Below, one piece after another: positions 5,318-18,816 of a DNA stretch of 43,065 bases (position 1 is the stretch's first letter; each line of letters opens with the position of its first letter). The position numbers and the translations under genes are program-made. Origin of the DNA: Rhodospirillaceae bacterium (lineage in GTDB: Bacteria; Pseudomonadota; Alphaproteobacteria; GCA-2746255); contig NVWO01000005.1 of the NCBI GenBank assembly GCA_002746255.1, positions 1 to 43,065 of the forward strand, written 5' to 3'. The notes below the pieces were generated by a model, which did no database searches, was not told the DNA's origin, and was given only the letters and a program-made list of their open reading frames with translations.

Positions 5318-7651
5318 ATGAGCACCGACACCCTCGCCGAAGCGCTACGCCACCACGAAGCCGGTGAGCTGGAAAAAGCGGCCGCCCTCTATCAGGCCAT
5401 TCTGGCAAAAACGCCGGACCAGGCCGACGCCCTGCATCTGCTGGGCGTGCTGACCCATCAACGCGGGGACGCGGAAGCGGCCCTTGGCCTGTTGCGCCGC
5501 GCCATCGCACAAAACCCGGACATACCTTCGTTCCACGGCAATCTTGGCAATGTGCTGCAGGAATTGGGGCGGAGCACCGAAGCCATCCCCCATTATGAAA
5601 AAGCGCTGGCCCTGGACCCGGACCTGCCCCCCATTCATTACAACCTGGCCATCGCGTTGGCGGCAAGCAACCGCCCAAACGAAGCCGTTCCCCATTTCGA
5701 CGCCTTCCTCGCCCGCCAGCCCGATCATGCGGACGGACGCATGGCCTATGGCAACGCGCTACGCGCCCTTGCCCGACCCGAGGAAGCTGCGGCGCAACTG
5801 GAACGCGCCATCGCCCTAACGCCCGACTCGGCGGCGGCCCACAACCAGCTTGGCAACGTCCTGCGCGATTTGCACGCGCCCGAAAAAGCGCGCCGTCATT
5901 ACAAAAAAGCGCTGCTTTACCAGCCGGATTTTGCCGAAGCCCACTGCAACCTTGGCGAGATGGCCTATGAAAAGGGCGATTTGAAGCGCGCCATGTTCCA
6001 TTACGAACAGGCGCTGGCCATGGACGCAGCCTTCCCCGAAGCGCCCCGGATTGGCCTGGCCCAGGTGCTGCAATTCCTGCCGTCCCGGACGTACCGGCCG
6101 CCGATCGAGAATTTGCTGCTGCAATGTTTTGCGTCCGATGCCGTCGGGTATCAGAAACTGGCCGCCCTTGGCGCCGAGCAGATTCGTTACAAATATCCCG
6201 AAATTTTTGCAACGGACGCGCCCGCGTCCGGCACAGCCACCCCCGACGCGTTCTTAAAGGACCCGCTGCTGCTGGCCCTGCTTGCGAAAACAATCAACAT
6301 CGACCCCGAACTGGAACGCGGCCTGACCCGTCTTCGCCGCCATTTTTTTCTGGCCGGCGACACGGGCGGCGACATGGGCGGCGACATGGGCGGCGACATG
6401 GGCGGCGACATGGGCGGCGACATGGCTTCGGGCGCACGGCCATTCCTGAGCGCCCTTGGCGAACAGGGGCTGAACAACGCTTATGCGTTTCTGGTCACGC
6501 CCGAGGAGGAAACCCGGCTGGCCGCCCTGAAAGGTGAGATCGAAACCGGCCTTGCCTTGGCTGGCGAGTTGAAGAAAGACGACGCCTTTTGCCACAAGCT
6601 GCTTTTGTTTTCGCTTTACGCGCCCCTGCATTGCCTTGCCGGCATCGACAAACAAAAGGCAGAGCCGCTTGCCGACTGGCCGGACTTCCTTCAACCCATC
6701 GTGCAGCGCACGTGGCTTGACTGGTTGGAAGAACAGGGAATCAAAGAGAAGCTGGCGACCCTGACCCCAATTGAGGATGCCATTTCGCGCGCCGTCCGCT
6801 CCCTTTATGAGGAGCACCCCTATCCACGCTGGTTTTCCGCCGACCGCCCGCAAGCCCCGGCCCCGGCCCCGGCAAAATCACCCGACGACGGCGACGCACC
6901 CAATGAAATTCTGGTTGCCGGTTGCGGCAGCGGCCAGCAGGCGATTTTACGCGCGTTGCGCCATCCCCATGTTCCCATTACCGCCGTCGATTTAAGCCGA
7001 ACCAGCCTCGCTTACGGCGTCCGCATGGCGCGCCGGCTTGGCGTCGAAAACATCGACTTTCTTCAGGCCGACCTTCTAAAGCTGGATATTTTAAAGAAGC
7101 AGTTTCCACTGATCGAATGCGGCGGCGTGCTTCACCACATGGCGGACCCCGTCGCCGGGTGGTCGGTCCTGACCAACCTGCTGCGCCCCGGCGGCAGAAT
7201 GTTTGTCGCCCTTTATAGCGCGCGCGCGCGCGAGGACATCGTCGCGGCCAGAAAATGGATCGCCGACCTTGGCCTGCAGCCAACGCCGAAAGACATGCGC
7301 GCGTTACGCAAACGCCTTTTCTTCGATGGCGATGACGCCGGCCTTCCAGATTTTGAGACGTTCAAGCGCTGCAAGGATCTTTTCGATCTAAATGGCTGCC
7401 GCGATCTTCTTTTTCACGTCCAAGAGCATCACTTTACCCTGCCGCAGATCGAAAAGATTCTTGACCAGCTTGGGCTTCGTTTCGCAGGCTTTCACCTGGA
7501 AGATCCCAGCATGGGGCCAGCCTATGCAACGCAATACCCTGAGGACCCGACCATGACCAATCTTGGCAATTGGAATCGTTTTGAAGCGGCACACCCAAGC
7601 GCCTTTATCAACATGTATCAGTTTTGGTGTGAGAAACCGGTCGCAACCTGA
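5318..7651 (+). CDS. TPR-repeat and class I methyltransferase fusion protein
   Basis: A 777-residue multidomain protein. Residues 1 to about 240 form a run of roughly seven tetratricopeptide repeats (for example FHGNLGNVLQELGRSTEAIP). A poorly defined middle region follows, then a SAM-dependent methyltransferase domain from about residue 525. Its glycine loop is VAGCGSGQQ (532-540), the acidic strand is ITAVDLS, and the post-motif segment is GGVLHHMADP. The fusion suggests that protein-protein contacts through the TPR array deliver a target for methylation, but the substrate is unknown. Between the domains an in-frame 12-base minisatellite encodes Gly-Gly-Asp-Met repeats (residues 350-369). 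An Ala-Pro linker precedes the methyltransferase. The gene converges on the DUF2336 gene with a 21-base gap. Confidence 0.85.
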   Translation: MSTDTLAEALRHHEAGELEKAAALYQAILAKTPDQADALHLLGVLTHQRGDAEAALGLLRRAIAQNPDIPSFHGNLGNVLQELGRSTEAIPHYEKALALDPDLPPIHYNLAIALAASNRPNEAVPHFDAFLARQPDHADGRMAYGNALRALARPEEAAAQLERAIALTPDSAAAHNQLGNVLRDLHAPEKARRHYKKALLYQPDFAEAHCNLGEMAYEKGDLKRAMFHYEQALAMDAAFPEAPRIGLAQVLQFLPSRTYRPPIENLLLQCFASDAVGYQKLAALGAEQIRYKYPEIFATDAPASGTATPDAFLKDPLLLALLAKTINIDPELERGLTRLRRHFFLAGDTGGDMGGDMGGDMGGDMGGDMASGARPFLSALGEQGLNNAYAFLVTPEEETRLAALKGEIETGLALAGELKKDDAFCHKLLLFSLYAPLHCLAGIDKQKAEPLADWPDFLQPIVQRTWLDWLEEQGIKEKLATLTPIEDAISRAVRSLYEEHPYPRWFSADRPQAPAPAPAKSPDDGDAPNEILVAGCGSGQQAILRALRHPHVPITAVDLSRTSLAYGVRMARRLGVENIDFLQADLLKLDILKKQFPLIECGGVLHHMADPVAGWSVLTNLLRPGGRMFVALYSARAREDIVAARKWIADLGLQPTPKDMRALRKRLFFDGDDAGLPDFETFKRCKDLFDLNGCRDLLFHVQEHHFTLPQIEKILDQLGLRFAGFHLEDPSMGPAYATQYPEDPTMTNLGNWNRFEAAHPSAFINMYQFWCEKPVAT
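6365..6424 (+). repeat. In-frame 12-base minisatellite, five perfect copies
   Basis: The unit ggcggcgacatg occurs five times without mismatch, preceded by a degenerate copy at 6353-6364. It encodes repeated GGDM, so copy-number changes keep the reading frame. Flanking sequence is not repetitive. Confidence 0.95.
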
Positions 7652-9076: not shown

Positions 9077-9271
9077 TTGGCAGACAATCCAGGCGAAAAT
9101 CCGGACTCCAACACCGAACTTCCCGATATTCTCTACCGATGCACAGCGTGCATGTACGTCTACCCACTGCAGCAATCGCCCCGAAAGGATGGGGAGCTGA
9201 CTTGCGCCCATTGCGGGGAGATTTTCGAGATGACCGAAGAAATGCTTGCCGATCTTGAAGTCGGCGCCTGA
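9077..9271 (+). CDS. Small rubredoxin-like/zinc-ribbon protein (TTG start)
   Basis: A 64-residue soluble protein with two Cys-X2-Cys knuckles: YRCTACMYVYP near residue 20 and CAHCGEIFEM near residue 43. The YxCxxCxYxY beginning and the spacing resemble a rubredoxin or zinc ribbon that binds one iron or zinc ion. The start is taken as TTG 9077 because AAAAGGGG ends 6 bases upstream and no in-frame ATG or GTG gives a sensible N-terminus. It is separated from the AOR operon by 226 bases with a hairpin and a possible promoter, so it may be transcribed separately. A role as electron carrier for the neighbouring oxidoreductase is conceivable but unproven. Confidence 0.7.
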   Translation: MADNPGENPDSNTELPDILYRCTACMYVYPLQQSPRKDGELTCAHCGEIFEMTEEMLADLEVGA

Positions 9272-9372: not shown

Positions 9373-9402
9373 GCCGTCACCGCCGGAGAACAACCGACAG
9401 CA

Positions 9403-9427
9403 GGGGTGCCACGTTGACAGGCACCCC
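9403..9427 (+). terminator. Terminator-like hairpin in the AOR operon leader
   Basis: GGGGTGCC (9403-9410) pairs perfectly with GGCACCCC (9420-9427) around a 9-base loop and is followed by T-rich sequence (tttggcttttagttttt). It lies about 70 bases before the first AOR-operon gene. It may end the rubredoxin-like transcript or act as an attenuator in the AOR mRNA leader. Confidence 0.65.
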
Positions 9428-9497
9428 TTTGGCTTTTAGTTTTTAAACATAGAGCGGCACAAAGCCGCCTATAAAAAGATAGAGGGGGGATACCGGA

Positions 9498-10004
9498 ATG
9501 CAGAAATCCCTAAACATCGATCCCAACAAATGCACAGGCTGTCTGCAATGCGAGATGGCGTGCGCCTTTGAACTGGAGGGGTCTTTTAACCCTGCGCATT
9601 CCCGAATCAAGATTTTCAACTTCGAGGAAGAGGGGCGTTTCGTTCCCTACACCTGTACGCAATGCGCAGAGGCCTGGTGCCTCCAGGCCTGCCCCGTTGA
9701 TGCCATCAAGATGGATGCCGGAACGGGCGCCAAGGTAGTGGACGAAGCCATCTGCGTCGGCTGCAAAGTCTGCACTATCGCCTGCCCCTTCGGCACGGTG
9801 AACTACAATCAGGCAAGCGGCAAAGTCATCAAATGCGACCTTTGTGGTGGCGATCCGGCCTGTGCGAAGGCCTGTCCGACGCAAGCCATCACCTATGTCG
9901 ATGCGAACTGGACGGGGCTCGACAAGATGCGAGCCTGGGCCGCCAAAACCGATACGGGCGCAGAGTCGACGACGGACACGCCGCAAGTCTCTGCCGGGCA
10001 CTAA
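9498..10004 (+). CDS. aorA: Ferredoxin-like electron-transfer subunit of tungsten aldehyde oxidoreductase, four [4Fe-4S] clusters
   Basis: A 168-residue polyferredoxin of the HycB/DmsB-like type. Sixteen Cys residues fall in four groups: CTGCLQCEMAC, CTQCAEAWCLQACP, CVGCKVCTIACP and CDLCGGDPACAKACP. This is enough for four [4Fe-4S] clusters. It lies 18 bases upstream of the AOR catalytic gene with the flavoprotein gene further on, the same order as aorA-aorB-aorC in Aromatoleum aromaticum. There AorA wires the tungsten subunits together. No signal peptide is present, so the complex is cytoplasmic. A GGGGGG-type ribosome-binding site precedes ATG 9498. The fold assignment is secure; the precise partner is inferred from neighbourhood. 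Confidence 0.9.
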   Translation: MQKSLNIDPNKCTGCLQCEMACAFELEGSFNPAHSRIKIFNFEEEGRFVPYTCTQCAEAWCLQACPVDAIKMDAGTGAKVVDEAICVGCKVCTIACPFGTVNYNQASGKVIKCDLCGGDPACAKACPTQAITYVDANWTGLDKMRAWAAKTDTGAESTTDTPQVSAGH

Positions 10005-10022
10005 ACATCAGGAGAGATCGCC

Positions 10023-11870
10023 ATGGGTTGGCATAAAAAGCTTTTGCGGGTCAATCTGACAAAGGGAACCTGCGAGACCGAGCCCCTTAACATGGAATGG
10101 GCGCAACTCTACCTTGGCTCCCGGGGTCTGGCAGCGAAATACCTCTATGAGGAAATCGACCCCGCCATCGATCCACTTTCCCCCAAGAACAAGCTTATTT
10201 TCGCCACCGGCCCGCTGACCGGAACCAGCGCGTCAACGTCCGGCCGTTACACGGTGACCACGAAAAGCCCGTTGACCGGCGCAATCGCGTGCTCAAACTC
10301 CGGCGGCTATTTCGGCGCCGAGCTGAAATTCGCAGGCTACGACATGGTGATTCTTGAGGGCCGGGCGAAAGAGCCCGTGTATCTTTGGATCAACGATGAC
10401 GAGGTGAAGCTGCTGCCCGCCGACAAAATTTGGGGCAAGACCGTCTGGGAGACGGAACCATGGATCAAAAAGACCCATCAGGACCCGTTGATCCGCGTCG
10501 CGTCCATCGGCATTGCCGGCGAAGCCGGTGTGAAATATGCCTGTGTTGTCAACGATTTGCATCGCGCCGCCGGACGTTCCGGCGTCGGCACGGTGATGGG
10601 ATCAAAAAACCTGAAGGCCATCGCATGCCGCGGCACCACGGGCGTGCGGGTCGCGAACCCGCGCGAGTTCATGAAAGTCGCGCAGGCGACAAAACGGGAC
10701 CTGAAGGAAAGCGCCTTTACCGGTGAAGGGCTGCCGCAATACGGCACCCAGGGGGTGACCAGCGTCATCAACGAATCCGGCATCTACCCGACGCGCAACC
10801 ATCAGGACGTGCAATTCGACGGCGCCAGCCGGATCGGCGGCGAAGCGATGTTCGAAAAGCGGGCATCGGACGGCAAGACGAACATGGTTCGCAACGCCGC
10901 CTGCTTTGGCTGCACGATTGCCTGCGGCCGGATTGCAAAAATCGACCCGAGCCATTTTTCCGTAAAGGACAAGCCGCGTTATCTCGGCGCGTCCGGCGGG
11001 CTTGAATATGAATCGTCCTGGGCCATGGGCGGCGATTGCGGCATCGACGACCTTGAAGCCCTGACCTTTGCAAACAGCGTCTGCAACGAGCAGTCGATGG
11101 ATACGATTTCCTTTGGGGCCTCGCTTGCCGCCGCCATGGAGCTGTACGAACGGGGCTACATCACCGACAAGGAAACCGGCGGCATCAAGTTGAACTTCGG
11201 ATCGGCGGAAGCCCTTGTCCAGATGGTGGAACTGACCGGCCGCAACGAAGGCTTTGGCAAGGACATCGGCCTTGGCTCAAAGCGTTTGTGCGAAAAATAC
11301 GGCCATCCGGAAATTGCCATGACCGTCAAGGGCCAGGAATTTGCGGCCTATGACCCACGCGGGGCGCAAGGCATGAGCCTGGCCTATGCCACCAGCAATC
11401 GCGGTGCCTGCCACCTTCGTGGCTACACCATTGCCGTCGAGATTTTCGGCGTCCATATGAAGGTCGACCCGCTGGTAACGGACGGCAAGGCAGAGGTTAC
11501 GAAATTTTCCCAGGATGTCACCGCCGCCATCGATTCAACCGGCCTCTGCGTGTTCCCGAATTTTGCCTGGACCCTCGACCAGTATCAGCAGCTCGTCCAG
11601 AGCGGCTGCGAAGGCGACTGGTCGATGGAAAAGATGATGGAAGTCGGCGAACGCATCTGGAATCTGGAACGCATGTTCAACAACAAAGCCGGCCTGACGA
11701 AGGCGGACGACACGCTGCCGAAACGGCTGCTCACGGAACCGGCGAAGACCGGCCCCGCCAAGGGGCTGGTTGCCCAACTCGACAAGATGCTGCCGGAATA
11801 TTACGAGCTTCGCGGCTGGACCCCGGACGGCAAGCCATCCAACAGCACGCTGAAACGGCTAAGCATTTAA
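10023..11870 (+). CDS. aorB: Tungsten-dependent aldehyde:ferredoxin oxidoreductase, catalytic subunit
   Basis: A 615-residue member of the AOR family, which oxidises aldehydes to carboxylic acids (and can catalyse the reverse) with a tungsten bis-pyranopterin and one [4Fe-4S] cluster. The opening MGWHKKLLRVNLTKG is typical. The cluster ligands appear as Cys294-X2-Cys297-X3-Cys301 (CFGCTIAC) with the fourth at Cys509 in STGLCVFPNF. The pterin-contact region DPRGAQGMSLAYATSNRGAC is present. An AGGAGA ribosome-binding site precedes ATG 10023. Tungsten rather than molybdenum is inferred from the family and from the tup genes nearby. The aldehyde range cannot be read from sequence. A hairpin with a T tract follows the gene. 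Confidence 0.95.
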   Translation: MGWHKKLLRVNLTKGTCETEPLNMEWAQLYLGSRGLAAKYLYEEIDPAIDPLSPKNKLIFATGPLTGTSASTSGRYTVTTKSPLTGAIACSNSGGYFGAELKFAGYDMVILEGRAKEPVYLWINDDEVKLLPADKIWGKTVWETEPWIKKTHQDPLIRVASIGIAGEAGVKYACVVNDLHRAAGRSGVGTVMGSKNLKAIACRGTTGVRVANPREFMKVAQATKRDLKESAFTGEGLPQYGTQGVTSVINESGIYPTRNHQDVQFDGASRIGGEAMFEKRASDGKTNMVRNAACFGCTIACGRIAKIDPSHFSVKDKPRYLGASGGLEYESSWAMGGDCGIDDLEALTFANSVCNEQSMDTISFGASLAAAMELYERGYITDKETGGIKLNFGSAEALVQMVELTGRNEGFGKDIGLGSKRLCEKYGHPEIAMTVKGQEFAAYDPRGAQGMSLAYATSNRGACHLRGYTIAVEIFGVHMKVDPLVTDGKAEVTKFSQDVTAAIDSTGLCVFPNFAWTLDQYQQLVQSGCEGDWSMEKMMEVGERIWNLERMFNNKAGLTKADDTLPKRLLTEPAKTGPAKGLVAQLDKMLPEYYELRGWTPDGKPSNSTLKRLSI

Positions 11871-11903: not shown

Positions 11904-11933
11904 CAGGGAAGGTGCCGATGCGTACCTTCCCTG
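11904..11933 (+). terminator. Terminator-like hairpin inside the operon, between aorB and aorC
   Basis: CAGGGAAGGT (11904-11913) pairs perfectly with ACCTTCCCTG (11924-11933) around a 10-base loop and is followed by attcttttt. This has the form of an intrinsic terminator, yet three more genes of the same functional set follow. It may work as a partial terminator or as a 3' mRNA stabiliser for aorAB. Confidence 0.75.
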
Positions 11934-11995
11934 ATTCTTTTTCGCCGACGTTGCGCGTGCGCGTCTGATTCGGGCCGCAAGGGAAAGGACAGCGA

Positions 11996-13249
11996 ATGAA
12001 GCATGTCATCATTGGCGCCGGCCCGTCCGGCGTGATCGCCGCCACCACCCTGCGCAAATTATGCCCGGAAGACGAAATCCTGCTGATCGGCGGCGAAGCA
12101 GAGCCACCTTATTCGCGGATGGCCATCCCCTATTATCTGATCGGCGACATCAAGGAAGCGGGCACCCACCTCAAGACCAGCACCGACTATTACAAAAAAA
12201 ATCGCATCACCTGTCAGCATGGCCGGGTCACAAAAATTGATCCGAAGAAAAAGGCACTCCATTTAAAAAACGGCAAGACGGTCACCTATGACAAGCTGTT
12301 GCTGGCAAGTGGCGCCTATCCAACCCGCCCGCCGGTCCCCGGCATTGACGACCCGGAAATCACCGGCTGCTGGACCCTGGAGGACGCGCGCCTGATTGCA
12401 AAAAAATGCAGGAAAGGCGTGAAGGTTCTCCAGATGGGTGCCGGTTTCATCGGCTGCATCATCATGGAAGCGATCGCCGCGACGGGCGTCGATCTTACGA
12501 TCGTCGAGATGGGGGACCGCATGGTCCCGCGCATGATGAACGAAACCTGCGGCGGCCTGATCAAACGGTGGTGCGAACAAAAGGGCATTGCCGTTTACAC
12601 ATCAACAAAGGTTATCAAGATTGAAAAGCGGGAAGACAAGACACCCCGTTATGCCATCCAGATGGAAGGTGGAAGGACGCTGGAGGCCGATCTGATTATT
12701 GCCTCAACCGGCGTTGCGCCCGCCCTCGACTATCTTGATGGCAGCGGCATTGAAGCCGACAACGGCATCCTGATTGACCCGCACATGCGGACAAATCTGG
12801 CCAATATTTACGCCGCCGGCGATTGCGCCAAAGGACGGGATTTTTCGACCGGCGGCTATGAGGTCCAAGCCATCCAGCCAACGGCGACGGAACATGGCCG
12901 CATCGCCGCCCAGAACATGGCCGGCGTTCCAACGCCCCATCCGGGCTCGCTGAACATGAACGTACTGAACACGCTGGGGCTGATTTCCAGCTCCTTCGGG
13001 CTATGGATGGGCGTCGAAGGCGGCGAACATGGTGAATTGCTGGACGAAGAAAATTTTCATTACCTGCGCCTGGAGTTCAAGGACGACGTTCTTATCGGCG
13101 CCCAGGCCCTTGGACTGACCCAGCATGTCGGCGTGCTGCGAGGGCTTATTCAGACCCAGACGCATCTCGGCCCATGGAAAGACAAACTGATTGCGGACCC
13201 GACCCTTATCATGTCCGCTTATCTGGCAACAACCCAGGCACAAGCATGA
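11996..13249 (+). CDS. aorC: FAD/NAD(P)-dependent oxidoreductase subunit of the AOR complex
   Basis: A 417-residue pyridine nucleotide-disulphide oxidoreductase-type flavoprotein. The N-terminal FAD-binding loop is GAGPSG (residues 7-12), the NAD-binding loop is GAGFIG (148-153), and the second FAD motif is YAAGDCA around 272-278. It lacks the redox-active Cys pair of disulphide reductases, which fits the NADH-oxidase/ferredoxin-reductase branch. As the third gene of an aorABC-like operon it probably couples AOR to NAD reduction. It starts 125 bases after aorB with its own good ribosome-binding site (AAGGAAAGGA) and overlaps the MoaD-like gene by 4 bases (ATGA). A nitrite- or rubredoxin-reductase-like role is the alternative if it is not part of the complex. 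Confidence 0.88.
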   Translation: MKHVIIGAGPSGVIAATTLRKLCPEDEILLIGGEAEPPYSRMAIPYYLIGDIKEAGTHLKTSTDYYKKNRITCQHGRVTKIDPKKKALHLKNGKTVTYDKLLLASGAYPTRPPVPGIDDPEITGCWTLEDARLIAKKCRKGVKVLQMGAGFIGCIIMEAIAATGVDLTIVEMGDRMVPRMMNETCGGLIKRWCEQKGIAVYTSTKVIKIEKREDKTPRYAIQMEGGRTLEADLIIASTGVAPALDYLDGSGIEADNGILIDPHMRTNLANIYAAGDCAKGRDFSTGGYEVQAIQPTATEHGRIAAQNMAGVPTPHPGSLNMNVLNTLGLISSSFGLWMGVEGGEHGELLDEENFHYLRLEFKDDVLIGAQALGLTQHVGVLRGLIQTQTHLGPWKDKLIADPTLIMSAYLATTQAQA

Positions 13250-13497
13250 AAATTACTCTAAAATTCTACAGCTCACTTAGCGACTTTCTGCCCGATGATG
13301 CGAAGAAAAATGTGGGCGAGATGGACTTCGCCGACAATGCCTCCGCTCAAGACGTCGTCAACAGGCTTGGCATTGCCATGAAAATGGTTCACCTGACGCT
13401 GGTCAATGGCGTTTACGTCGCCCCCAGCGACCTTGCTGCGCAGGCTCTCAAAGAGGGAGACACGCTCGCCATGTGGCCTCCCCTTGCAGGCGGATAA
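13246..13497 (+). CDS. moaD: MoaD/ThiS-like sulfur-carrier protein
   Basis: An 83-residue ubiquitin-fold sulfur carrier. It begins MKITLKFYSSLSDFLPDDA, has the HLTLVNGVYVAPSD segment and the LKEGDTLAMWPPLAGG tail. The C-terminal Gly-Gly is the site of adenylation and thiocarboxylation in MoaD, which donates the dithiolene sulfurs of molybdopterin. The start ATG 13246 overlaps the flavoprotein stop (ATGA). An upstream in-frame start at 13174 would lie inside that gene and add residues foreign to the family. A MoaD-like gene in an AOR operon suggests a carrier dedicated to the tungsten cofactor. No MoaE gene is visible in the window. Confidence 0.9.
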   Translation: MKITLKFYSSLSDFLPDDAKKNVGEMDFADNASAQDVVNRLGIAMKMVHLTLVNGVYVAPSDLAAQALKEGDTLAMWPPLAGG

Positions 13498-13814
13498 TGC
13501 CAGACGCGCCGAAAAGCGAGAGCGCGCCGCAACGGCGCGTGCTTGAGCTTTCCTACAGCCATGTCGAATTGTTCCGCGCCTTCCAAAGAATTTTTGACCC
13601 CCTCCCCGTCTGCATCCAGGGAACGGGTCTGACCGTAACGGACGGAAAAAAGAAAATCGTCGTTGCCCTTGGCGAAGAGCGCGAGCGGCGGCTTGGCGCC
13701 GAGTTCAAACTTCCGGAAACGACAATCGATTTTGCCTTTCACGGCTATAGCGAGGACGAAGCGAACGCCATTCTCAACCACTTCATTCTGCGCACCCGGC
13801 GCGGCGGCGGCTGA
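13497..13814 (+). CDS. Unrecognised 105-residue protein at the end of the AOR operon
   Basis: I do not recognise this family. The start ATG 13497 overlaps the last base of the MoaD-like stop codon (TAATG), so it is translationally coupled. The product is soluble and mixed in structure. It opens with a basic, flexible stretch, then FRAFQRIFDPLPVCIQG, a strand-turn-strand GLTVTDGKKKIVVALG, and a helical SEDEANAILNHFIL, ending RTRRGGG. Only one Cys is present. Its place after a MoaD-like gene suggests a maturation or assembly role for the tungsten enzyme; the Aromatoleum aor operon is also described as carrying extra maturation genes. The three terminal glycines may or may not be functional. The stop codon lies one base from the convergent moaA stop codon. 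Confidence 0.75.
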   Translation: MPDAPKSESAPQRRVLELSYSHVELFRAFQRIFDPLPVCIQGTGLTVTDGKKKIVVALGEERERRLGAEFKLPETTIDFAFHGYSEDEANAILNHFILRTRRGGG

Positions 13815-13815
13815 A

Positions 13816-14805
13816 TTAACCGCCGGTGGTGCTCATATGGCGACGAAGGGCCGGTGCCGCATCGCGCCGGTCGATGACAAAGTCGTGCCCCTTGGGTTTG
13901 CGCCCGATTGCCTCACAAATGGCCTGAACCAGAAGGGCATCGCTTTCGCTCTCTCGGACCGGGGTTCTCAGATCGCCCCAATCGTCCTGACCAAGGCACA
14001 TGTAAAGCTTGCCGGTGCAGGTCAGCCGTACCCGGTTGCACGATTCGCAGAAATTGTGGGAAAGCGGCTCAATAAAGCCAATTCGGCCGCCCGTTTCCCC
14101 AACATCCACGTACCGCGCCGGTCCACCGCTTTGATGGTCGCTGTCGCGCAGGGTCCAGCGTTTTTCAAGCCGCCGGCGCAGTTCTGCCAAGGACAAATAC
14201 TGGTCCATCCGATCCTGTTCGATCTCGCCCAGAGGCATCGTCTCAATGAGAGTCCAGTCAAAGCCCTGGTCCCCGCACCATGCAAGCAAGGCGTCGAACT
14301 CGTCTTCGTTCGTCTCTTTCAGGGCAACGGTGTTGATCTTCACCTTCAGCCCCGCTGCCTTCGCCGCCTGGATGCCTTCCAGCACGGTTTCGATCTTCCC
14401 CCAGCGCGTGAGCGCGCGGAACCGGTCCGCATCCAGGGTATCGAGAGAAACATTGATGCGGCGAACCCCGGCTTCGTAAAGCGCCACGGCATGTTTCGCA
14501 AGATGGTTGCCATTTGTCGTCAGGGTCACTTCGTCAAGGTCGCCGGTCTTTAGATGGCGGCCCAAATTCTGAAACAGGGTCATCACGTCGCGGCGCACCA
14601 GCGGTTCGCCGCCGGTGATGCGGATTTTGCGCACGCCCATGGAAACAAAGGCACTGCAGACGCGGTCCAGCTCCTCCAGGGAAAGCAAATCGCGCCGGGG
14701 CAAAAAGGTCATGTCTTCCGACATGCAATAAACGCAACGCAGATCGCACCGGTCCGTCACGGAAACCCGCAAATAGGTCACGTCGCGTCCAAAGGGGTCC
14801 ATCAT
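13816..14805 (-). CDS. moaA: GTP 3',8-cyclase MoaA
   Basis: Radical-SAM enzyme for the first step of molybdenum/tungsten cofactor synthesis, GTP to 3',8-cyclo-GTP. At 329 residues it has normal length. The N-terminal cluster motif is C20-X3-C24-X2-C27 (CDLRCVYC), followed by [11 protein letters not shown]. The C-terminal second [4Fe-4S] site is C253-X2-C256-X13-C270. The protein ends with the conserved Gly-Gly that reaches into the active site in MoaA. It lies 51 bases downstream of tupC on the same strand and is probably co-transcribed with tupBC, tying cofactor synthesis to tungstate import. ATG 14805 is followed by a second ATG; either could be used. Confidence 0.96.
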
Positions 14806-14856
14806 GGGTTGTCGGTTCCTTCTTTCCAGCCGTCTGGTGGGGCCACAACCGTCAGT

Positions 14857-15576
14857 TTACCACGTAAGCCGGCCTGCGAGAAAGGCCACCGCTTCCGGGC
14901 TTTCCGGGCCGGAAAAGAAGGCTGCTGCCGGTTTCCGCTCGACCAGCCGGCCGCCGCAAAGGAAAAGGATGTCCTCGCCAAGCCGTCGCGCCTGGCCAAG
15001 ATCGTGGGTCGTCATCACAATTTTCGTGCCGCTGGCCTGAATTTCAAGAATAACATCTTCAACGATCCGGGTCGCCGCCGGGTCGAGACTGGCGCTCGGC
15101 TCGTCCAGAAAAAGCACCTGGGGCCGGACCGCCCAGGCGCGCGCAAGGGCCAGGCGCTGCTGTTCACCACCGGAAAGGACGCGTGCCGGCAGTTTTGCCT
15201 TCGCGGTCAGGCCGGTTCGGCCCAGAACTTCTGCAACCCGGCGATGACGTTCGGCCCTCGCAACACCGCGACCGGCCAGGGCATAGGCAACGTTGCCGGC
15301 CACCGAACGGCGCAGCATCACCGGGCGTTGAAAAACCATCGCCTGGGCGTGCATCGCTTCTTCCTGGCTGTGTTCATGCCAGGCGATCCGCCCCTCTGTT
15401 GGCGACAGCAGGCCGTGGCAAAGACGAAGCAGCAGGCTTTTCCCGGCGCCGTTCGGCCCCAGGATGAGCGTGCGGTCCTCCGCCTGAATGTCCAGGAAAA
15501 TGCCCTTTAGCAAGGCCTGGCCGCCTATTTCATAGGCAAGATCCGTCAGCACGAGAGGAAAGATTGTCGCACTCAT
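14857..15576 (-). CDS. tupC: Tungstate ABC transporter, ATP-binding protein
   Basis: A 239-residue ABC ATPase that would energise uptake of oxyanions through TupB. The P-loop reads GPNGAGKS, the signature LSGGEQQRLALARA and Walker B LFLDEPSASLD, followed by the switch TTHD. The start ATG 15576 overlaps the tupB stop (ATGA); an earlier in-frame start would lie inside tupB in the wrong protein context. The tungstate assignment rests on the TupB-type permease next to it, the nearby tupA and the AOR operon. By sequence alone the ATPase could serve molybdate or another anion. Confidence 0.88.
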   Translation of the reverse strand: MSATIFPLVLTDLAYEIGGQALLKGIFLDIQAEDRTLILGPNGAGKSLLLRLCHGLLSPTEGRIAWHEHSQEEAMHAQAMVFQRPVMLRRSVAGNVAYALAGRGVARAERHRRVAEVLGRTGLTAKAKLPARVLSGGEQQRLALARAWAVRPQVLFLDEPSASLDPAATRIVEDVILEIQASGTKIVMTTHDLGQARRLGEDILFLCGGRLVERKPAAAFFSGPESPEAVAFLAGRLTW

Positions 15577-16280
15577 GAAATGCCCCGTCGCGACGCCGCG
15601 TTGCCAATCGCATAAACCGCCCCATTGATCAGCAGTGAGATCCCAAGCAGCAGAATGCCCAGCCCAAGGGCAAGGGTCAGATTTCCCTTGCTGGTTTCCA
15701 GCGCAATGGTTGTCGTCATGACGCGGGTCACGTGGTTGATGTTGCCACCGACAATCATGACGGCGCCCACCTCGGCCATGGCGCGGCCCAGACCCGCCAG
15801 CACCACCGACAGCACCCGGGCGCGCCCGTCCCAAAGCAGGGTTGCCATCATCCGACCGCGGCCAATGTCAAGGGAACGCAAAAGTTCGCCATATTCGTCC
15901 CATAAATCGACGACCACCTGACGGGTGAGCGCGGCGATGATCGGCACCACCAGCAACACCTGGGCGATAATCATCGCCGTCGGCGTGAACAGAAGCCCAA
16001 GCACGCCCAAAGGCCCGGCCCGGGAGATCAACAGATAAACGATGAGGCCGACGACAACCGGCGGCAGGCTCATCATCGCGTTCAAAAGGACAGCAAGAAC
16101 GCCGACGCCCGGAAAGCGGAACAATGCGACGGCCGCCCCAAGGGGCAGGCCGATCAGCGCAGCGATGCCAACGGCGGTCAGGCTGACCTGCAACGACAGG
16201 GCGACGATGCTGACGAGGTCGGGATCAAAAGCCCCGATCATCGCAAAGGCATGGGCAAAGGCGGTTGCAAAATCGTTCAC
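15573..16280 (-). CDS. tupB: Tungstate ABC transporter, permease
   Basis: A 235-residue inner-membrane permease with about five hydrophobic segments. The long loop with the coupling helix includes EYGELLRSLDIGRGRMMATLLW and the AMAEVGAVMIVGGNI block typical of TupB/WtpB-type anion permeases. It is the first gene of a minus-strand unit tupB-tupC-moaA and is divergent from fetA across 131 bases. Unlike the common tupABC order, the binding-protein gene is not adjacent; it lies about 1.7 kb away on the other strand. A molybdate or sulfate role is the alternative, but the TupA homologue in the same locus favours tungstate. Confidence 0.88.
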   Translation of the reverse strand: MNDFATAFAHAFAMIGAFDPDLVSIVALSLQVSLTAVGIAALIGLPLGAAVALFRFPGVGVLAVLLNAMMSLPPVVVGLIVYLLISRAGPLGVLGLLFTPTAMIIAQVLLVVPIIAALTRQVVVDLWDEYGELLRSLDIGRGRMMATLLWDGRARVLSVVLAGLGRAMAEVGAVMIVGGNINHVTRVMTTTIALETSKGNLTLALGLGILLLGISLLINGAVYAIGNAASRRGIS

Positions 16281-16337
16281 GGCGTTTCCCTGTGTCTTGA
16301 GCCGTCAAAGTATCTCGGGCCGTCGAAAATCTACTGC

Positions 16338-16358
16338 CCTTTCCGGCGCGTGGAAAGG
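16338..16358. promoter_or_regulatory. Inverted repeat in the tupB-fetA divergent region
   Basis: CCTTTCC (16338-16344) and GGAAAGG (16352-16358) form a perfect 7-base inverted repeat with a 7-base spacer, midway between the divergent tupB and fetA starts. It could be a regulator-binding site for either unit. No bound protein is implied by the sequence. Confidence 0.35.
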
Positions 16359-16411
16359 ATTGCAAATCGGCAAACGGTGACGCCGGGCCCGCATTTCGCT
16401 ACAACCTAGAC

Positions 16412-17020
16412 ATGCTGCAGATCAACGCGTTGCAGACGGAGCACCTGGCCGCAATCGATGCCGCGATCGCCAGCGGCGAATGCGTCGCCGTCATGGGGCC
16501 AAGCGGCTCTGGAAAAACGCTGTTCCTGCGCGCCATCGCCGATCTGGACCCGGGCACGGGGCGGGTGACCCTAAACGGCGTTGAGCGGCAAAGCCTGACG
16601 GCCCCGCAATGGCGGCAAAAAGTCTGTTACCTGCCGCCGGATTCCGGCTGGTGGGCAGACGACGTCGCCGCGCATTTCCCAGACAGCCACGCGGCGCGCG
16701 CGCTTTTCCCGCGCCTGGGGCTGCCGGTGACGGCGCTGGACTGGGAGGTCGCACGGCTTTCCACCGGTGAACGCCAACGCCTGGCCCTTGCACGCGCGCT
16801 GTTGCTTCACCCCGCCGTGCTGCTTCTGGACGAACCGACATCCGGTCTGGACGCGACCACCATAGCAGCGGTCGAAGCGGTGCTGAAACACGCCCTGGAC
16901 GAAGGCACCGCGATCGTACTTGTCACCCATGACGCCGCCCAGGGAAAGCGCATGGCAAAACGCTGCCTGCATTTCAACCAGGGACGCCTTGAAAGCGAGG
17001 AACAATGGGCGCCGACGTAA
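16412..17020 (+). CDS. fetA: FetA-type metal-export ABC transporter, ATP-binding protein
   Basis: A 202-residue ABC ATPase with a compact fold as in FetA/YbbL. P-loop GPSGSGKT is near residue 30, the signature is the variant LSTGERQRLALARAL, and Walker B is LLLDEPTSGLD with VTHD following. It overlaps the permease gene by 16 bases. The E. coli FetAB pair is linked to iron export and peroxide resistance. Here the pair lies between tupBC and tupA, so a link to metal balance in the tungsten/iron-sulfur locus is possible, but no specificity can be read from the sequence. Confidence 0.85.
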   Translation: MLQINALQTEHLAAIDAAIASGECVAVMGPSGSGKTLFLRAIADLDPGTGRVTLNGVERQSLTAPQWRQKVCYLPPDSGWWADDVAAHFPDSHAARALFPRLGLPVTALDWEVARLSTGERQRLALARALLLHPAVLLLDEPTSGLDATTIAAVEAVLKHALDEGTAIVLVTHDAAQGKRMAKRCLHFNQGRLESEEQWAPT

Positions 17021-17811
17021 TAGCCTTAAGCTATGGCGACCTTGCGCTTGCGTCGCTGCTTGTCCTGCTGAACGCGGGCCTTTCTTTCGGCCTGCGCCTG
17101 CGCCTTGAAAGCCAGTTGCTGATCGCCGCCCTGCGAATGGTCGTTCAGCTTAGCCTTGTCGGCCTTGTCCTGAACGCGCTTTTCACAAGCGTCTCCCCCG
17201 TTTTGACAGGCTTTGTGGCCCTGGCCATGGTGCTGTTCGCCGGTCGTGAAATCGCCGCCCGCCAGGAACGGCGCCTGGCCGGCTGGTGGACCTATGGCCT
17301 TGGCACGACCAGCGTGCTGATGGCGGCCATGGTCGTAACGGTGCTGGCCCTCACCACCCAGATTCAACCGGACCCCTGGTACCACCCACGCTTTGCCATT
17401 CCCATTCTGGGCATGATCCTTGGCAACACGATGACCGGCGTCGCCCTTGGCCTGAACACGCTGATGACGACGGTCGCGCGCGAACGCGTCGCCATCGAAG
17501 CGCGGCTGGCGCTGGGCCACAAATGGCGCGATGCCTTTCGCAACGTCATCCGCGAGGCGATGCGAAGCGGCCTCATCCCGATCGTCAACGCGATGGCGGC
17601 GACGGGCTTGGTCTCGCTGCCAGGCATGATGACCGGGCAGATTCTTGCCGGGGCGGACCCCATGCACGCCATCAAATACCAGTTGCTGATTATGTTCCTG
17701 ATTGTTGGCGGCACCGGCCTTGGCGTCTTCGCAGCGATTCTGGCGGGCGCGCACCGGCTGACGGATTCCCGCCATCGCCTGCGCCTGGATCGCCTGCGCA
17801 AGGCCAAGTAA
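17005..17811 (+). CDS. fetB: FetB-type metal-export ABC transporter, permease (UPF0014)
   Basis: A 268-residue inner-membrane protein of the FetB/YbbM (UPF0014) family. Hydrophobic segments occur near residues 10-30, 37-60, 65-85, 95-115, 125-150, 193-215 and 225-250. Family hallmarks include LRMVVQLSLVGLVL, PILGMILGNTMTGVALGLN and ATGLVSLPGMMTGQILAGADP. Translation overlaps fetA by 16 bases, so the two form one unit. A hairpin follows the stop codon directly and separates it from tRNA-Gly. Iron export is the role known for the E. coli homologue; the substrate here is not established. Confidence 0.92.
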   Translation: MGADVIALSYGDLALASLLVLLNAGLSFGLRLRLESQLLIAALRMVVQLSLVGLVLNALFTSVSPVLTGFVALAMVLFAGREIAARQERRLAGWWTYGLGTTSVLMAAMVVTVLALTTQIQPDPWYHPRFAIPILGMILGNTMTGVALGLNTLMTTVARERVAIEARLALGHKWRDAFRNVIREAMRSGLIPIVNAMAATGLVSLPGMMTGQILAGADPMHAIKYQLLIMFLIVGGTGLGVFAAILAGAHRLTDSRHRLRLDRLRKAK

Positions 17812-17813
17812 GG

Positions 17814-17833
17814 CGGCCCTTGCACAAGGGCCG
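17814..17833 (+). terminator. Hairpin after fetB
   Basis: CGGCCCTTG (17814-17822) pairs perfectly with CAAGGGCCG (17825-17833), 3 bases after the fetB stop codon. There is no T tract, and a second GC-rich hairpin (GCCGCC with GGCGGC) follows, so termination efficiency is uncertain. Confidence 0.45.
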
Positions 17834-17860
17834 AGCCGCCGCCTAAAGTGGCGGCCGCAC

Positions 17861-17934
17861 GCGGGTGTAGCTCAATGGTAGAGCTCCTGCTTCCCAAGCA
17901 GGTGACGAGGGTTCGATTCCCTTCACCCGCTCCA
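17861..17934 (+). tRNA. tRNA-Gly (anticodon CCC)
   Basis: A 74-base tRNA with encoded CCA. Acceptor stem GCGGGTG pairs with CACCCGC, discriminator T. The anticodon stem CCTGC/GCAGG encloses TTCCCAA, giving anticodon CCC for GGG codons. The T arm GAGGG-TTCGATT-CCCTT is canonical. It sits between fetB and tupA. Confidence 0.96.
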
Positions 17935-17947
17935 TTGTCACAAAAAC

Positions 17948-17975
17948 GGGCCCGCCTGAAAGGGCCCGCCTGAAA
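17948..17975. repeat. 14-base perfect tandem duplication after tRNA-Gly
   Basis: The unit gggcccgcctgaaa is present at 17948-17961 and 17962-17975 without mismatch, 13 bases after the tRNA and just before the tupA leader. Each unit contains the palindrome GGGCCC, so the two can pair with one another as a weak hairpin. Confidence 0.9.
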
Positions 17976-17991
17976 GACGCTGGAAAATTTT

Positions 17992-18816
17992 ATGTCTTTT
18001 CGAAACGTGCTGTCCGTCCTGCTTGGCCTGTTTTGCATCAGCCCCGTCTGGGCAGCAGAAAAAGTGCTCGTTCTTGCCTCAACGACATCGACGGAAAATT
18101 CCGGACTCTATGATTTTCTACTGCCCATCTTCAGGGAAGAAACCGGCATTGCGGTCCGCGTCGTCGCCGTCGGCACCGGCCAGGCAATGAAGCTTGCCCA
18201 GAGAGGCGACGCCGACGTTCTGCTTGTTCATCACCGGTCGTCGGAAGATCGCTTCATCGCCGAAGGCTATGGGATCGACCGCCGCGACGTCATGTACAAC
18301 GATTTTGTGATCGTTGGCCCCGGTGACGACCCGGCCGGCATCCTGGGGGTGCATGATGTCGGCGACGCCCTGCGGAAGATCGCCAAACACAAGGCGATGT
18401 TTGTCTCACGCGGTGACGACAGCGGCACCCACAAGATGGAACGCGACCTTTGGCGGGCGATCGATTTCGATGTCCGCCCGGCCTCTGGCGACTGGTATCG
18501 CGAGACTGGTTCCGGCATGGGCGCCACCCTGAACACGGCGGCGGCGGCCGACGCCTACACGCTGACGGATCGCGGCACATGGCTTGGTTTTCAGAACCGG
18601 CGGCGGCTTATCCTTGCCGTCCAGGGCGACCCCCGGCTTCTCAACCCCTATGGCATTATCCGCGTCAACCCGGAACGCTTTGCGCATTTGAACGCCGAAG
18701 CGGCGCGGATTTTCGTCGACTGGCTGACCTCGAAGCGAGGGCAAGCCGCCATCGCCGCCTTCCGGATAAACGGCAAGCAGCTTTTCTTTCCAAATTACAA
18801 GAAAAACGCCCCCTGA
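17992..18816 (+). CDS. tupA: Tungstate-binding periplasmic protein of ABC transporter
   Basis: A 274-residue solute-binding protein. Residues 1 to about 21 form a signal peptide ending VWA-AE, so it is exported to the periplasm. The mature N-terminus LASTTSTENSGLYDFLLPIF carries the TTST-x-SGL oxyanion-binding motif of TupA. Further family features are DVLLVHHRSSEDRFIAEGYG, MYNDFVIVGP and SRGDDSGTHKMERDLW. It would capture tungstate and hand it to TupB/TupC, whose genes lie on the opposite strand beyond fetAB. TupA proteins of this type select tungstate strongly over molybdate, but specificity here is by homology. A gap of 98 bases separates it from the response regulator gene. Confidence 0.93.
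   Translation: MSFRNVLSVLLGLFCISPVWAAEKVLVLASTTSTENSGLYDFLLPIFREETGIAVRVVAVGTGQAMKLAQRGDADVLLVHHRSSEDRFIAEGYGIDRRDVMYNDFVIVGPGDDPAGILGVHDVGDALRKIAKHKAMFVSRGDDSGTHKMERDLWRAIDFDVRPASGDWYRETGSGMGATLNTAAAADAYTLTDRGTWLGFQNRRRLILAVQGDPRLLNPYGIIRVNPERFAHLNAEAARIFVDWLTSKRGQAAIAAFRINGKQLFFPNYKKNAP

Follow-up and report, generated by a model that had tools for sequence, protein, structure and literature searches.

The aor locus of the window, that is, of the whole stretch of 43,065 nucleotides analysed here, raises the question of what a strong hairpin followed by a U-rich tract does inside an operon, between the genes aorB and aorC of one enzyme. The solved A. aromaticum AOR, 8C0Z, contains three chain types, which match AorA, AorB and AorC. 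In its filament, AorAB units repeat and one AorC forms the cap; the C-terminal helix of AorA is required for filaments (PMC10413684).

The operon of the window has been identified as aorABCDE, located on the plus strand. The gene aorA (9498..10004) encodes a polyferredoxin subunit (168 aa) that carries the filament helix at its C-terminus (NWTGLDKMRAWAAKTD); the best PDB match is 8c0z_C (267 bits), and the alignment extends through this helix. The tungsten-cofactor subunit AorB (10023..11870, 615 aa) possesses AFOR_N and AFOR_C domains and has 8c0z_A as its best solved relative (914 bits), and the FAD/NAD-binding cap subunit AorC (11996..13249, 417 aa), with a Pyr_redox_2 domain, is closest to 8c0z_E (451 bits). 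The two remaining genes trail aorC with overlaps. The product of aorD (13246..13497), whose start shares 4 nt with the end of aorC, is a MoaD/ThiS-like putative maturation factor with matches to the ThiS / Ub-Mut7C and MoaD families. The gene in the aorE position (13497..13814) encodes a protein of 105 aa that matches no Pfam or NCBIfam family; L026, L036 and L041 have weak relatives of it at this position. The features of an Aromatoleum-type AOR are thereby found in a single operon: AorA with the conserved helix, AorB and AorC, together with a MoaD-like aorD and an occupied aorE slot of no recognised family.

The inter-cistronic hairpin is located on the plus strand at 11904..11933 and has the sequence CAGGGAAGGT-GCCGATGCGT-ACCTTCCCTG. 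It is formed from 10 perfect base pairs with an inner G-U and C-G (12 pairs in all, 7 GC) around a 6-nt loop, begins 33 nt past the aorB stop (11870), leaving 62 nt between its end and the aorC ATG (11996). The sequence 3' of the stem, ATTCTTTTTC, includes an imperfect U-tract (ATTCTTTTT, 11934..11942, plus strand) placed directly behind the hairpin, with at least 6 T within 8 nt and one interrupting C. Two characteristic features of an intrinsic terminator are therefore present: (i) a GC-rich stem-loop predicted to be stable at 37 C; (ii) a U-rich tract directly after the stem. The earlier note, which had described a perfect 10-base stem with its tail 33 bases past aorB, proved correct in every checkable detail. 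The fresh ribosome-binding site that it assigned to aorC was found as a Shine-Dalgarno region (AGGGAAAGGA, 11980..11989, plus strand), and the genes that it placed downstream, aorC and two more, are present as aorC, aorD and the gene in the aorE position.

The 61 nt at this junction fold with -25.8 kcal/mol, compared to -14.5 +/- 2.7 for shuffles (z = -4.3; 0/200 shuffles as good), and the local dG of the hairpin is about -22. Terminator-like sites between 5 and 20 kb amount to 26 vs 21.9 in shuffles, a count not above chance, and the claim therefore rests on the strength and conservation of this particular hairpin. With 12 pairs it has the most of all these sites, the runner-up having 7. Among 44 co-directional gaps from the window and the stretches of its own genus (window junction included), the strongest hairpin with a U-tract is again that of the window. 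A repeat element or known RNA has been rejected, as the 2.1-Mb genome contains the junction only once and the hairpin has no match in Rfam.

Three congeners of the window (G001, G002 and G003) have been compared with it. AorB identity to the window is 85% for G003 and 84% for G001; the contig of G002 stops inside aorB, and its junction was recovered from another contig via the aorC protein. The hairpin and a T-rich tail occur in 4/4 species of the genus at the same distance past the aorB stop, and most other gap columns vary among the four. The congener U-tracts are ATTCTTTTT, ATTCGTTTC and (GAT)TTTTTCCC. In the alignment 12/12 pairs form in all four sequences, and sliding the partner by 1-3 columns lowers the pairing to 42-56%. 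Two stem pairs are altered on both sides (A-U to G-C and G-C to A-U), another two on a single side; with just four sequences, the shuffle control for the double changes is only moderately low (39/500). Between the hairpin and the Shine-Dalgarno site the sequence lacks conservation, and the three congeners have 13-15 nt less there than the window.

The comparison was extended by looking for AorB across the class and the phylum, within the family and order to which G605 belongs and within the family of G628, and by adding a scan of named genomes and the fetched stretches. A total of 187 distinct aorB-aorC junctions have been collected from Proteobacteria. The gap measures at least 40 nt in 147 of them, and 131 of these 147 contain a hairpin of -12 kcal/mol or better in a scan confined to nearly perfect stems. 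In the 40 junctions with a gap below 40 nt (Polynucleobacter-type and several others) no hairpin of that strength was found. The earlier note had named missing conservation in relatives as the outcome that would speak against it; the comparison gave the opposite result, with 4/4 congeners and most relatives keeping a hairpin at the junction. The stem sequences are mostly unrelated to that of the window, as in L049 (AAGAAGCGGCCCGAACAGGTCGCTTCTTTTTT), L109 (AGAGCGGCCACCAGTGGCCGCTCTTCTTTTTT), L114 (AACGGCTCTGCAAGGAGCCGTTTTTTTT) and L136 (ACAGGGGCGGCGAAAGTCGCCCCTATTTTTC). Sister genomes swap whole stems yet keep the pairing: L150 (GCCGCCTTCAACCGCATGGCTGAAGGCGGC) and L152 (GCCGGTCGCGCCCGCAAGGGCGCGGCCGGC) differ by six double changes over the gap consensus structure, at a column identity of 0.57.

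A U-tract with at least 5 T accompanies the hairpin in 32/54 junctions of family f193 and is rarer in family f229 (19/61), whose hairpins are equally strong (53/61 at -15 or better). Among other Alphaproteobacteria a hairpin of -15 or better is present in 7/13 junctions and a U-tract of at least 5 T in just 1/13. A. aromaticum EbN1 is represented by L194, whose AorB agrees with 8c0z_A at all of the 167 residues covered (100% identity); its gap of 114 nt contains a long imperfect hairpin and no U-tract. Across the collected junctions, the constant element is the predicted hairpin, and the U-tract is its frequent, not general, partner.

Two groups of junctions are unusual. The gaps of L103, L105, L107 and L135 contain long near-perfect inverted repeats (for instance ACGCAGAAGACGCAAAG, and AACGCCGATGAACGC in L135), which resemble miniature mobile elements or intergenic repeats that have inserted there. 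Behind aorB, L011 and L203 have a very strong hairpin, which in L011 reaches -35.9 kcal/mol; no aorC was found directly downstream.

As controls, 182 co-directional gaps of the same length range were taken from the window and from 20-kb segments of these genomes and of related ones, in which genes were predicted with a simple home-made program. Among the junctions with gaps of 40-250 nt (n=142), 82% have a hairpin of -15 or better vs 23% of the controls (Fisher p 6e-27) and 11% of dinucleotide shuffles of the junctions, and terminators with at least 5 T in the 8-nt tail in 47% vs 8% (p 2e-16); the junctions are related by descent, so that these p-values are to be taken as effect sizes. The control set includes the window junction once as well as true operon ends, both of which make the comparison conservative. 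Within the same operons the median gaps are 17 nt for aorA-aorB, 80 nt for aorB-aorC and 9 nt for aorC-aorD, and the few long A-B and C-D gaps contained no terminators (0/6 and 0/13).

The reading that we prefer, at a probability of roughly 0.6, is that the hairpin acts inside the aorABCDE operon as a leaky 3'-end element and holds AorC and the maturation factors at lower levels than AorA and AorB. RNA polymerase from a promoter ahead of aorA would transcribe aorAB, and a fraction of the complexes would terminate at 11904-11942 on the hairpin and U-tract; the hairpin would also shield the truncated aorAB message at its 3' end. The remaining complexes would read through to aorC, aorD and aorE. 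Partial termination, together with a Shine-Dalgarno site that is strong for aorB and weaker for aorC, would hold AorC (one per filament) below AorA and AorB (several per filament). A complete terminator would leave aorC, whose product is part of the purified enzyme, unmade, and a partial one would give aorC, aorD and aorE a fixed lower share. The hairpin recurs across Proteobacteria, so that more filament body than cap is probably made. Termination or protection itself, its efficiency and its purpose are inferred.

The ribosome-binding sites point in the same direction. In the window, the Shine-Dalgarno site of aorB (AGGAGAG, 10010..10016, plus strand) is predicted at -7.4 kcal/mol and is stronger than that of aorC at -5.3; the other energies are -11.6 for aorA, -2.5 for aorD and -5.2 for aorE. 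Across the relatives the aorB site reaches -9.2, and control genes reach -5.5. The aorC site of relatives reaches -6.0 with the hairpin vs -3.1 in those without a hairpin at gaps of at most 20 nt. Such a pattern would be expected if either the hairpin or poor translation held AorC scarce. The weak aorC site has been rejected as proof of compensation: the difference is clear, but short gaps push the site into aorB codons and permit translational coupling, and the aorD sites are equally weak, so that it counts as support only. A surplus of aorAB over aorC would fit the layout as a whole, with U-tract and Shine-Dalgarno site abutting, promoter room absent in most relatives with a U-tract and Shine-Dalgarno strength falling from aorB to aorC.

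The strongest rival explanation, which we regard as unlikely, is that the full aorABCDE message is cut 3' of aorB and the hairpin blocks 3'-5' exonucleases; aorAB would then outlive aorCDE, and termination would be minor. It is favoured by the strong hairpins without a U-tract in most f229 members, including A. aromaticum, and by precedents from puf, the cellulosome and E. coli. The hairpin of the Rhodobacter puf operon separates genes for the many-copy and few-copy parts of one complex. The aor hairpin of the window resembles it as an inter-cistronic hairpin behind a gene needed in excess, between many-copy and few-copy subunit genes and in Alphaproteobacteria; unlike the puf hairpin, it carries a U-tract. 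According to the passages of PMC5927463 and PMC7509114 that cite Chen et al. 1988 and Klug & Cohen 1990, the puf hairpin acts as an mRNA decay terminator, and examples from E. coli likewise act through decay (PMC5927463). In the cellulosome cip-cel operon, subunit ratios are set by stem-loop-dependent selective RNA processing and stabilisation (PMC4423207, PMC10311766). Here, as proposed for aor, intergenic stem-loops determine the subunit ratios of a multi-subunit assembly, but the cip-cel mechanism acts after endonucleolytic cleavage, and no cleavage site is known for aor.

Against decay as the main route stands the strand on which the U-tracts lie. In the same gaps, U-tract terminators number 67 on the sense strand and 12 on the antisense strand, which ties the T-run to the direction of aor transcription, whereas a pure exonuclease block would need none; moreover, the U-tract is kept in 4/4 species of the genus of the window. 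The aorABCDE operon of A. aromaticum has the same gene order and subunits and its own aorB-aorC gap (L194) with a long hairpin (PMC6365974, PMC10413684), but, unlike the window, no U-tract. The U-tract in the window favours termination there, its absence in A. aromaticum favours protection after cleavage, and the mechanism therefore probably varies between lineages.

A further alternative assumes that a full terminator closes the aorAB unit and that aorCDE has a promoter of its own. Where a terminator stands between co-directional genes, these often represent two units, and the 62 nt between hairpin and aorC in the window leave space for a weak promoter. Nevertheless, we consider this alternative improbable. 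No sigma70-like site was found on the plus strand between the window hairpin and aorC, and this candidate promoter region is the unconserved stretch that is shortened in the three congeners. Among the U-tract cases the median distance from the hairpin end to the aorC start is 24 nt, and in 45/68 it is at most 30 nt, too close for promoter room; in the relatives with such short spacing the U-tract touches the Shine-Dalgarno site. A promoter behind the hairpin hardly fits into this space, which argues that in these relatives aorC is reached by read-through.

The hairpin may also be a relic of a former operon end, from before aorC was appended, or a neutral chance structure. Hairpins are not rare in GC-rich gaps, as the controls themselves indicate, and some lineages lack one at the junction; on the other hand, the structure persists while the sequence turns over, and enrichment and strand bias lie far above the controls, which makes this explanation very improbable. 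Equally remote is a conditional attenuator with read-through set by a signal (tungsten, redox state or the ribosome position at the aorB end), an idea suggested by a tungsten-enzyme operon with maturation factors behind the hairpin, as there is neither a conserved sequence nor an Rfam riboswitch, and the stems are unrelated between genera.

For the leaky 3'-end element, the proposed purpose, namely a filament with a scarce cap, would agree with the known AOR structure. The AorA filament helix is near-universal in the AorA proteins read, including those of hairpin-less Polynucleobacter-type operons with a gap of 8-10 nt; the junctions with a gap below 40 nt retain it wherever the locus included AorA. 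A link between hairpin and filament via this helix has therefore been rejected, as the two presences do not track. With a nearly universal helix, no direct correlation between hairpin and filament formation was found in the junction set. In L011, aorD lies 90 nt downstream of aorB with the hairpin ahead of it, and splitting aorAB from the maturation factors may thus be part of the purpose. The interpretation offered earlier, in which partial termination or 3' protection matches a filament with few caps, has gained from the conservation of the hairpin and the fitting layout, and its filament-cap part has been weakened by the hairpin-less lineages with the helix and by L011. A broader proposal, possible but on balance doubtful, is that a sequence-independent, structure-conserved RNA element at the junction controls the length of tungsten nanowire filaments in many Proteobacteria, and that lineages losing it swap to a weak aorC Shine-Dalgarno site; the nucleating cap would then be held scarce by two convergent means.

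The closest parallel for partial termination is provided by the ABC-importer operons of Ruminiclostridium cellulolyticum, in which internal intrinsic terminators lie behind genes needed in excess; stem-loops of this type with a poor U-tract gave 21-96% termination in an artificial operon (PMC9045158). Both systems place the stem-loop right behind the gene of the excess product; read-through feeds the downstream genes there and would do so in aor, and the R. cellulolyticum terminators often combine a poor U-tract with a long GC-rich stem, as with aor. They differ in that R. cellulolyticum involves other genes and another phylum and its effect has been measured, whereas the evidence for aor comes from sequence. 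A search of the AOR papers for individual words, the selection varying from paper to paper, found no mention of a terminator, hairpin or intergenic element. The kind of element is already known; the aor case adds an unusually wide conservation, and it is an added case in which hairpin position and strength, not sequence, are conserved between species. If cap scarcity is set by a conserved element, this would be genetic evidence that cells aim at several AorAB per AorC, and deletion or strengthening of the hairpin would offer one handle on filament length and NAD coupling.

The surroundings of the operon have also been analysed. A hairpin at 9400-9430 (GCAGGGGTGCC...GGCACCCCTTT, then GGCTTTTAG) lies between a zinc-ribbon gene (9077-9271) and aorA, and is probably the terminator of the upstream unit and the 5' border of the aor operon. 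On the other side, aor is adjoined by moaA (13816-14805, minus strand), followed by an ABC ATPase within the ORF 14857-15834 and a permease-like ORF (15573-16280), both on the minus strand, and by a second ABC ATPase with a membrane protein (16412-17811) and a PBP_like_2 binding protein (17992-18816) on the plus strand. The region 13816-18816 resembles an island of tungstate/molybdate uptake and cofactor genes, in which the putative binding protein and permease lie on opposite strands. Further upstream, at about 6330-6400, a TPR/methyltransferase-like gene (5318-7651) contains an in-frame short tandem repeat of five consecutive GGDM units.
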